This document shows positions 134 through 4,829 of a stretch of 40,092 bases of DNA, piece by piece. The notes beneath the pieces were generated by a model. It saw only the letters and a list, made by a program, of their open reading frames with translations, was not told the DNA's origin and did no database searches. Position 1 is the first letter of the stretch. Each line of letters opens with the position of its first letter. Source of the DNA: Oscillospiraceae bacterium (GTDB lineage: Bacteria > Bacillota > Clostridia > Oscillospirales > CAG-272); NCBI GenBank assembly GCA_015065335.1, contig SVQM01000007.1, positions 1 through 40,092 of the forward strand. Reading direction: 5' to 3'. The translations under genes were made by a program, and so were the position numbers.

Positions 134-817
134 ATGAAGAAAATAACAGCATTATTTTTAGCAGTATTTATGGCGGTCAGCCTATCCGTGAATCTTTACG
201 CAGCTGATTTTGACGTATCAGATTATAAAAATCCGTTTACAGGTACTGCATATACCGAAGATGATTTTTACGGAAACGGAACTATTATCATTATTTTGTC
301 TCATGAGGCAAGCATTGAGTGGCGTGAGTATACCAAGGAGGACTTCCCCGAACTTGAGCTTGATTCTGTTGATACAAAAGATCCTGCATCTACGGACAAA
401 GAATTCATTCTTGGAAATCCGGAATATCGCAACTTTGTGCACATTACTTTGAAGGACAAGAGCAACAAAGCTGTAATTGAAGCAATAGAGCTTCTGTATA
501 ACAGAAATGATGATGACTATATGTCCGAAAATCCTAAAAAGGATATTCATTTAGCGCTGCCCATGTACAAAACATACTATGATAAACCTGATATAAATCC
601 GGATATCGATGACAACTTTTCATATACAATAGGTGATGTTAATAATGATGATATTTTAAACCTTACAGACGTATCGCATATGCTAAAATATATAGCAGGA
701 TGGGAAAATATTGAGATTATTTTTTTAGCTACAGATTTAAACGGAGATGATGTGATTACTCTTAGCGACGCATCTATACTTCTTAAAAAACTTGCAAAAT
801 GGGGAATATATAATTAA
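134..817 (+). CDS. Secreted protein: signal peptide, subtilase-propeptide (I9)-like domain, C-terminal dockerin-like repeat pair
   Basis: ATG at 134 preceded by AAGGAGAA; MKKITALFLAVFMAVSLSVNLYA signal peptide. C-terminus GDVNNDDILNLTDVSHMLKYIAGWE...DLNGDDVITLSDASILLKKLAKW is dockerin-like. Middle segment resembles the N-terminus of the subtilase at 2154 (YTKEDFPELEL vs YTQSDFPEIEI). Confidence 0.85.
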   Translation: MKKITALFLAVFMAVSLSVNLYAADFDVSDYKNPFTGTAYTEDDFYGNGTIIIILSHEASIEWREYTKEDFPELELDSVDTKDPASTDKEFILGNPEYRNFVHITLKDKSNKAVIEAIELLYNRNDDDYMSENPKKDIHLALPMYKTYYDKPDINPDIDDNFSYTIGDVNNDDILNLTDVSHMLKYIAGWENIEIIFLATDLNGDDVITLSDASILLKKLAKWGIYN

Positions 818-857: not shown

Positions 858-1403
858 ATGAAAAAGTTAACAGCATTAACAGTTACACTCGTACTTTTAA
901 TCTTATCATTAGCACAGGTCATATATGCATCGGATGAAGGTTATATTGGGAATATAGGTGAAATCAGAGTAGGTCTTTATGAAGCTGAGCGTTTTGACTA
1001 TGATTCATTTCCCGGTGTAAAAATACAAATAATTAGATACTACAGCAGTTGCGGCTTCTATATTATGCTTGAAGAAAGGACAATTAAAGCTACAGATGAG
1101 GCGGTAGAGATCATAAAATCAATTATCGGAGATAATATCGAGTATATAATACCTTCTTATAAGACGATAGTATCCGGCGACCTCATGTGGTATAACGGAG
1201 ATGCTGATAGTGATTGGGATTGTGATCTTACCGATGTATCTCTTGTTCTGAAATATATTGCCAAATGGGATGTGCCCTTTGAAAATTCGGAATTCGAAGC
1301 CGTGGATTTATACAGAGACGGTAAGATAACACTTGTGGACGTAACTATTATGATGAAAAAGATCGCCGGATGGGACCAGAGCAAATGGCTGCCGGCACAG
1401 TAA
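858..1403 (+). CDS. Secreted dockerin-like protein with diverged propeptide-like domain (tandem paralogue of 134..817)
   Basis: RBS AAGGAGAG; signal peptide MKKLTALTVTLVLLILSLAQVIYA; NGDADSDWDCDLTDVSLVLKYIAKWD...DLYRDGKITLVDVTIMMKKIAGWD dockerin repeats; IIPSYKTI motif shared with paralogues. Confidence 0.82.
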   Translation: MKKLTALTVTLVLLILSLAQVIYASDEGYIGNIGEIRVGLYEAERFDYDSFPGVKIQIIRYYSSCGFYIMLEERTIKATDEAVEIIKSIIGDNIEYIIPSYKTIVSGDLMWYNGDADSDWDCDLTDVSLVLKYIAKWDVPFENSEFEAVDLYRDGKITLVDVTIMMKKIAGWDQSKWLPAQ

Positions 1404-1732: not shown

Positions 1733-2023
1733 TTAAATGCTATGTCCTGCAATACGTTTCAAGATAAGCGAAGCATCTGACAAATTCAATACATTGTTAT
1801 TATCCATATCATATGAATGGAAATATTCATAAATGTCAACATCCCACTTGGCGACGTGTTTAAGAAGGAGCGATACATCAGAAAGATTATACTCACGGTA
1901 CGTGTCGCCTATAAAAGGTACTTCAACCCACCCATCAGGTATGTCATTGGCAAATGACACCGATGCAAAAACCGAGATAATGATACAAATAGCAATCAAA
2001 AACATCGAAAACTTTTTTAACAA
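1733..2023 (-). CDS. Small secreted dockerin-only protein
   Basis: TTG start at 2023 preceded by GGAGG; signal peptide LLKKFSMFLIAICIIISVFASVSFA; degenerate first repeat GDTYREYNLSDVSLLLKHVAKWD then intact DMDNNNVLNLSDASLILKRIAG. Confidence 0.75.
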   Translation of the reverse strand: MLKKFSMFLIAICIIISVFASVSFANDIPDGWVEVPFIGDTYREYNLSDVSLLLKHVAKWDVDIYEYFHSYDMDNNNVLNLSDASLILKRIAGHSI

Positions 2024-2153
2024 AACAATCCCTCCTAAACGATATATTCTCATCTATAGTATATGAAATATACTACACCATGGGAATATATTATACCACT
2101 TTTTTGAGCTTTTGTAAATACATTTTTGAAAATTTAAATATTTGAGGTGCAAA

Positions 2154-4829
2154 ATGAAAAAAATTATTAGTTCTATTATGTTGATATCAATCATTTTTTC
2201 TATATGTATCCCTGTTTTTTCCGATAACATAGATGACAATAACAACATAAATTACAGCCAAGCAAAAGATTCATTAAACTTTTGCGACGCTATACTTGAC
2301 AATGAATTTTCGGGTGATGGTGTTATATATGTGACTATGCATCACGATGTAAGTGATGTAGGGAAAATTTATACTCAATCTGATTTTCCGGAAATAGAAA
2401 TTGAAAATATTTTTGACATAACCTCAGCTAACATAAATAGTAAAAAAGAAGATTACGGACCTGATTTTAAGAACATATTAAAAATTATTCTTGTACATAA
2501 AGATAGAGATGGTGTTATTTCATCCATCGAAAAGCTACAGTTTAGAGCTAATGTCGATATATATTGGGTAGAACCCTCTTAAAAACTAACGTGTACAGAA
2601 GAGGTTATTATAGACAATTCGGAGCCTGTTTTTAATGACACATATTATCCATCTCAAAAATGGGTATATGATATTATTGGATTAACTGATGTATGGAGTG
2701 AATTCGATATTGATTGCAATTCTTTGAAAGTAGCAATAGTTGATAGGCATGGTGTTAAACAACATGAGGATATAGAATTGGAATCAGAAATAAATCTATA
2801 TGGTTCTGATTTTAATTATCAAACAGCCGGAAATCATGGTACTTCGTGTGCCGGCATTGTAGGTGCTACACAGAATAATGGGAAATGGGTTGCCGGTATT
2901 TGCAAAAATATTAGTATAATATCCATTATTCCTCCGAAACTATCATACAATGTTAATGATCCATCTGATTCTAATATTGTTTCTTTTTTTACAGATATAG
3001 TAAAGTGCCTTAATGATCATAATATTTCTGTCGCAAACATAAGTTTTTGCATTGAGGAACAGTATGTCTATGCCAATAAAACTTCTTGTGAGAATATAAT
3101 AAATAATTATCGGGGACTTTTAATATGTTCAGCAGGAAATAAAAATTTTGATGTTGATGATGAACCTCTCTTTCTATCAAGCTTTAATTGTAACAATATT
3201 ATTTCCGTTGGAGCTACAAATTCAAGTGATGAACTTTGGTATAAAAATAAACAATCAGGAACAAATTACGGAATCAAAAGTGTTGATTTGTTTGCTCCGG
3301 GACATGGGCTTAGTGTAATAATCGGTAGTGGTAGTTCATCTGATATAGAACTTGATGCTTATGGAACGTCTTATGCCGCTCCAATAGTCTCCGGCGTAGC
3401 TGCGCTGATAATGTCCGAAAATCCAAGTCTGGATCCCCTACAGGTCAAAGCTATCATTATGAATACGGTAGACAGAAGTGATGCTTTCATCGGTAAATGC
3501 GTCAGCGGCGGTAGAATCAACGCATACAGAGCTGTATATGTAGCACATGATCTGAAAGATAATGCTCCCGATACCGAAAGTCGTTACAACTCGAATTTCC
3601 TGTTCCATGCAAGCACAAATACTATTGTTAAATACGTAGGTATACACGGTACCCCTGATATGCCTTCAGAAATTAACGAAGTTCCTGTAACGAAAATAGA
3701 AGAACGTGCTTTTTATAAAAACACGTTCATCAGACAGATTGATATACCTTCAAATATTACGCGAATCGGTGAGGAGGCTTTCAGGCAATGCACGGCGTTG
3801 GAAACAGTTACCGTTGGCTCATCCATTATACAAGATAGAGCTTTTCTTGGATGTAATTCACTTGAAAACGTAACTCTCTCGAATAATCTTGTAGGTATAG
3901 GTGAAATGGCATTCTGGGATTGTAACTATGAATATATATCAGTCCCGAATACTCTGGTCGCCATCGGAGACGATGCATTTGCTCTGAGTTCGCATCTTAT
4001 TGTACCGGAAGGCTCGGATGTTCAAAATTACTTTGCATCAAAGGGTTACTCGATGCTTCTTATCACGGGCGGAAGTGTTTCCGGTTATCATAATGGCACT
4101 TTTGTTTATGTGGATCCCGATAATCCGGGAGGCCTTAAGAATATCAACATACCGGAATCCTATTTGGGTACTCCAATAACCTATATTGGCAGTCATGCTT
4201 TTGAAGATGCGGATAATATAGAGATGATCAATATACCCACCACCGTTACGTCCATCGGTTACAGAGCTTTCAGAGGCTGTGATAACCTTAAAACCGTGGT
4301 CATTCCTCCGTCGGTCACAAGTATTTCAAACAGCATGAACAGTACCATCGTTGAGGATTCACCCAATGCGACGATATACTGCACAAGGGCTTCGTCTGCT
4401 TATGGGCATGTGTTGCAGAATAATCTTTCATGCATTCATATGGAGACAAGAACAAATGACGCCGGGGATGAGTATGCGGTTGTGTGCGGACTGTTGGAAA
4501 AAGAGGGGAACGGAACAGAATATATTATTCCCGAGACTTTTGCAGGACTTACCGTAACCATGATCGATCCCGCTGCATTTTCATGTTCGATGGAAACTCC
4601 TTTTAACATGACAAAGATGTTTATTCCCGAAACTGTAGAAACGATCGGAGGCAATGCTTTTTCTGATTGTACTAATCTTACGGATGTTTACATATATTCA
4701 GATACAGCAACGGTAGGATTATACTGTTTTGCCGGTGTAGATACTTCGCATTTTAAAATACATTGCAAGTCCGGTTCTCCGGCATTTGTTTATGCGGCAA
4801 TTAACGGCTATACCTTTGTACTTATGTGA
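2154..4829 (+). pseudogene. Secreted S8 (subtilisin-like) protease with propeptide and C-terminal BspA-type LRR repeats, interrupted by an in-frame TAA at 2580-2582
   Basis: ORFs 2142..2582 and 2724..4829 are in the same frame; 2583-2723 is open in that frame (KLTCTEEVIIDNSEPVFNDTYYPSQKWVYDIIGLTDVWSEFDIDCNS). Triad motifs VAIVDRHGV (Asp), NHGTSCAGIVGA (His), YGTSYAAPIVSGVAAL (Ser). LRR-like repeats such as IPSNITRIGEEAFRQCTALETVTV. Signal peptide at 2154. Confidence 0.8.

Follow-up and report, generated by a model that had tools for sequence, protein, structure and literature searches.

The window, a stretch of 40,092 nucleotides from an Oscillospiraceae bacterium, carries a gene for a secreted subtilase that is cut by an in-frame stop codon. 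Has an ordinary protease gene been broken recently, is the stop an error of the assembly, can the protease still be made, or is a prodomain without its protease of use to the cell?

The interrupted gene and its neighbours

The gene starts on the forward strand with ATG at 2154, and its frame runs to the stop codon at 4827-4829. The initial annotation described this frame as open save for TAA at 2580-2582, and the sequence confirms it: the TAA is the single interruption of an otherwise open frame of 892 codons, whose translation reads DIYWVEPS up to the stop and KLTCTEEV after it. Given that the 748 codons 3′ of the TAA are free of stops, where 51 are expected from base composition (P ~1e-23), we conclude that 2154-4829 is a real interrupted coding frame.

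Before the stop, the gene encodes a signal peptide (2154-2222; the cleavage site was placed by eye) followed by some 119 residues. These include a fervidolysin-type prodomain at 2283-2579, recognized by a profile match from 2283, by its AlphaFold2 model and by relatives that match PF22148; it ends at P-S, immediately before the TAA. After the stop come a linker and the N-terminal arm of the S8 domain (2583-2726), followed by the Peptidase_S8 catalytic domain itself (2727-3473), identified by a profile match, conserved columns and a fold match. The downstream part matches PF00082 with an E-value of 4e-33 (115 bits against a cut-off of 21.8). The catalytic Asp (2742-2744), His (2835-2837) and Ser (3369-3371) and the oxyanion Asn (3138-3140), all on the plus strand, lie on invariant or nearly invariant columns of the alignment with homologues, while the Gly two residues after the catalytic Asp is changed. 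The frame ends in a BspA-type leucine-rich repeat region (3687-4829; LRR_5, 2e-48). The order of signal peptide, prodomain and S8 domain is that of the fervidolysin-type prodomain, and the profile alignment bears out the earlier placing of the stop between propeptide and catalytic domain.

Within the same gene, third-position G+C rises from 0.21 to 0.38 at about position 3387 (codon 411), just past the catalytic Ser, and none of 300 shuffles gave a jump as strong; in this respect the gene resembles a mosaic, as if assembled from two sources.

Three genes for secreted proteins precede it. The first (134-817, plus strand) encodes a homologous prodomain and a dockerin but no protease, as judged from profile and sequence matches and from a tree, and its prodomain is a detectable homologue of that of the interrupted gene (27% identity, E 2e-10). 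The second (858-1403, plus strand) encodes a dockerin protein in which profile and sequence searches found only a PSYK motif like that of the prodomain end. The third (1733-2053, minus strand), divergent to the subtilase gene, encodes a small dockerin-like protein with an EF-hand match of only E 0.08. The initial annotation had treated the neighbours as paralogues and had likened the truncated product to them, minus the dockerin. Both statements hold for 134-817; neither is supported for 858-1403, which shares the short motif only and was not found as a homologue, and a solo prodomain elsewhere in the genome, on contig C50, fits the architecture better still.

The stop codon among homologues

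No second S8 gene was found in the organism's own genome (155 contigs, 75% complete), and the comparison of homologues therefore drew on relatives; a search of the genome_contigs set gave one distant relative only. The family sample comprised 397 genomes, 63 of them with relatives of the S8 part. Genes were counted as full-length when the match to the prodomain+S8 profile (length 394) started at or before position 40 and ended at or after position 370; there were 23 such genes, and 20 of them carry no stop at all. Prodomain and S8 domain share one frame in 28 aligned intact rows (27 distinct genes), and homologues with signal peptide, prodomain and S8 domain uninterrupted are present in many species.

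The TAA occupies profile position 96, right after P-[N/D]. Counted from the alignment columns, this position is Tyr in 14 of the 28 intact rows and Phe in two, and P-[N/D]-Y is the motif that closes these prodomains. The view that TAA replaces a Tyr codon, first taken from the neighbouring genes, is thus backed by homologues in which Tyr is the commonest residue of the column; none of the 28 rows has a stop at the site. In the S8 domain of the interrupted gene, 17 of 71 conserved columns hold a residue other than the consensus one; the count is 0-16 for intact homologues and 22 for one distant homologue. Since this count lies above nearly all intact homologues, some loosening of the S8 domain may have preceded the stop.

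Three partly overlapping surveys, at the level of family, order and class, covered about 1,100 distinct genomes and yielded 61 distinct full-length pro-S8 genes. Five of these carry one in-frame stop (8%, 95% interval 3-18%): the window gene with TAA at profile position 96, and genes with TAG at position 116 in G170 (L057), TAG at 122 in G127 (L041/L058), TAG at 157 in G1081 (L111) and TAA at 273 in G797 (L110), each of the last four with an open frame after the stop. The gene of G1081 ends in a dockerin-like repeat and comes from a genome on one 3.8 Mb contig. Such stops are thus sporadic as well as repeated, and these proteases look dispensable enough for occasional loss. Such loss fits a survey of complete bacterial genomes in which in-frame stops were widespread and often short-lived (Belinky et al. 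2021, PMC7918605). A clustering of stops at the prodomain end was also considered: the three stops of the family survey lie within positions 96-122 (post hoc chance ~1%), which at first suggested a stop that recurs and may have a function, and the stops at 157 and 273 from the class survey weakened the pattern.

Two further genomes hold genes broken in other ways. In G183 (L098), a pro-subtilase lacks most of its catalytic domain: the prodomain runs into a TGA shortly after a P-N-F motif, and the last part of S8 follows in another frame. In G435 (L100), prodomain copies form an array around a subtilase gene that is itself broken and contains three more in-frame TAA codons.

Origin of the stop and expression of the downstream frame

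The single stop, the intact frame and the uninterrupted homologues best support the first option of the initial annotation, a recent nonsense mutation. We put the probability at roughly 70% that an ordinary pro-subtilase gene was hit by one recent nonsense substitution. The starting point would be a secreted pro-subtilase with signal peptide, fervidolysin-type prodomain, S8 domain and BspA-type leucine-rich repeats; a single substitution would then have turned the conserved Tyr codon that closes the prodomain into a stop, recently enough that nothing further has broken in the downstream frame. Because ribosomes would stop at the TAA, 2154-4829 would supply the cell with no protease, only with a free prodomain of some 119 residues for export. 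The sampled strain would then carry a young pseudogene, or else its population would hold both this allele and intact copies.

As in a pseudogene, a premature stop lies in a frame that is intact among homologues. The downstream frame holds no second disruption. Given that 4% of single substitutions there would create a new stop and none has arisen, neutral divergence since the stop is bounded at about 3.4%, or at about 1.1% if indels are assumed to be ten times rarer than substitutions. With other free prodomains of functional appearance in this genome, discussed below, the truncation may be more than simple loss.

The stop is known from one consensus sequence. Conceivably, if improbably, the organism has an intact gene, and the TAA arose by a sequencing or consensus error or, in an assembly of mixed strains, by a minority or chimeric call. 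The assembly is indeed fragmented and incomplete, and 2.6 kb from the stop the contig ends in a repeat common to contigs C14 and C50. However, about 100 dockerin matches and 97 matches to the subtilase/LRR query in the same genome include none with an in-frame stop, and the density of errors is therefore low. Furthermore, substitution errors are rare in covered contigs, and the same kind of stop occurs in the genome on a single 3.8 Mb contig. As to the contig end, bases 1-127 of the window are identical to the end of C14, with partial copies at 816-850 and 1558-1598, and bases 1-149 match the end of C50 at 98% identity; there, this leader precedes another dockerin/prodomain cluster. It looks as if C14 could continue either into the window start or into C50, which places the contig break in a repeated leader cassette.

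If the nonsense substitution is real, does the cell have any way left to make the protease? TAA serves as a normal stop codon in this DNA, closing 13 of the 29 genes in the window, and a change of genetic code was rejected on this ground. No tRNA that would read TAA, TAG or TGA was found around 29 matches to RF00005 (Rfam), a set that is incomplete given that the genome is 75% complete; no RNA structure was found downstream of the stop (z -0.28); and the stop site holds no repeat. A suppressor tRNA and an RNA element after the stop were accordingly both rejected.

Low-level readthrough, with free prodomain as the main product and full-length protease as a minor one, would account for the intact downstream frame and catalytic residues, and bacterial in-frame stops under purifying selection have been reported (PMC7918605). 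The stop is conserved in no homologue, however, and neither a suppressor tRNA nor a stimulating RNA structure accompanies it. TAA is also generally the least leaky stop codon. We regard readthrough as very improbable, and the programmed readthrough raised by the initial annotation finds no backing at this site. The same goes for phase-like variation, given that the change is a substitution rather than slippage.

A restart of translation after the stop, with the S8-LRR part as a separate cytoplasmic protein, would have an AGAGG-like stretch shortly 3′ of the stop to draw on. Beyond that stretch, however, there is no in-frame ATG, GTG or TTG before TTG 2724, the first canonical start, 47 codons past the stop and already within the beginning of the S8 domain, and a protein begun there would lack both signal peptide and prodomain. 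We give this reading next to no weight. The downstream part would thus be left, as annotated at first, without ordinary secreted expression, and readthrough, restart and phase switching are all unlikely.

Prodomains without a protease

What the cell would make from the interrupted gene is then its prodomain. Taken alone, this prodomain has no significant match in Pfam, NCBIfam or PDB sequences. Among 31 aligned relatives, 11 match the fervidolysin N-terminal prodomain PF22148 (best 7e-5), although the window copy itself does not, and none matches the Inhibitor_I9 profile. AlphaFold2 predicts a small alpha/beta fold (mean pLDDT 85.5, core >90), for which a fold search with the prodomain model alone returned general ferredoxin-like domains as the nearest solved folds, none of them significant. 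Modelled through the stop, prodomain and S8 domain together are subtilisin-like (mean pLDDT 78), with a best fold match of E 1e-21 and a TM-score of about 0.8 by target length to several subtilisins. On these models, what the interrupted gene yields should be a free prodomain that folds and is exported, in line with the secreted propeptide-only polypeptide first proposed, its fold being predicted and its export and stability presumed.

The closest relative of this prodomain belongs to no protease: it is the solo secreted prodomain of the same genome (C50:13001-13396, minus strand; L059 3972-4406), which is 54% identical, has about the same length and closes a cluster of dockerin genes next to rimP-nusA; a protease relic was looked for behind it and none was found. 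A second contig encodes a prodomain fused to a dockerin without a protease, like 134-817 (C150:18180-18485; L060). In the tree, the window prodomain, the C50 solo copy and the dockerin-borne copies of 134-817 and C150 form one group with support 95/95. Further protease-free prodomains occur in the G435 array and in other proteins of G005, G016, G001 and G166, and well-supported branches of the tree force at least five changes between protease-linked and protease-free labels. Judging by these sequences, free and dockerin-linked copies are common in the group, and protease-free copies arose repeatedly in the order. In G028 (L092) and G492 (L104), a prodomain-only copy lies immediately 5′ of an intact, closely similar pro-subtilase, apparently from partial tandem duplication. 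The window's own genome shows about 100 matches to dockerins and no fewer than two cohesins, and a scaffold might thus carry those prodomains that are fused to dockerins.

Such protease-free prodomains may reasonably be suspected of being protease inhibitors. The stop might have been kept for the use that the cell has of a free secreted prodomain, as an inhibitor of, or folding helper for, other subtilases. The window prodomain's place in a group with one solo and two dockerin-borne prodomains of its genome, all three without a protease, its likeness to the C50 copy, the repeated origin of such copies and a stop that falls precisely where a confidently predicted fold ends would all suit this reading. 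Nevertheless, we consider it unlikely: constraint cannot yet show in so young a stop, the frame after it is intact, stops of other homologues also fall inside the S8 domain (157 and 273 of 394), and no partner protease was found in the genome sequence, itself 75% complete. A stop as young as this cannot separate use from loss. A wider form, for which we would likewise claim little likelihood, is that across the order subtilase prodomains have repeatedly been freed by nonsense mutation, partial duplication or dockerin fusion to serve as secreted, partly scaffold-anchored inhibitors, TAA 2580 being such a conversion in the act.

Under the preferred reading, a recent nonsense substitution, the stop alone is one more nonsense-interrupted gene, and its value lies mainly in what it points to: secreted subtilase prodomains without proteases, some of them on dockerins, which form a family with poor annotation in cohesin-bearing bacteria. 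If these inhibit proteases, they would offer a means to protect or tune enzyme complexes outside the cell, and the window gene would illustrate one way in which a protein of this type can originate.

With nonsense-interrupted bacterial genes at large (PMC7918605), the window gene shares one in-frame stop in a recognizable open frame and, probably, a short life; it differs in that its stop falls exactly at a domain border and leaves a folded domain. Like the fervidolysin-type pro-subtilases (PF22148 and PF00082), it has a prodomain followed by S8, with relatives of the prodomain matching PF22148; unlike them, it has no Pfam match for its own prodomain, is interrupted and carries LRR_5 repeats. 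Free-standing inhibitors of the Inhibitor_I9 type, which resemble subtilisin propeptides, include the fungal POIA1 and the plant SPI-1. They too are prodomain-like proteins produced without a protease, whereas none of the 31 prodomains aligned here matches I9 and, in the window gene, a protease frame still follows the stop. A search of the open literature found no direct precedent for prodomain-type inhibitors with dockerins. Dockerin-borne serpins are, however, known in Ruminococcus flavefaciens (PMC2930009), and the neighbouring gene 134-817 resembles them in joining an inhibitor-like module to a dockerin in a cohesin/dockerin organism; its module differs in being a subtilase prodomain, a suspected inhibitor.
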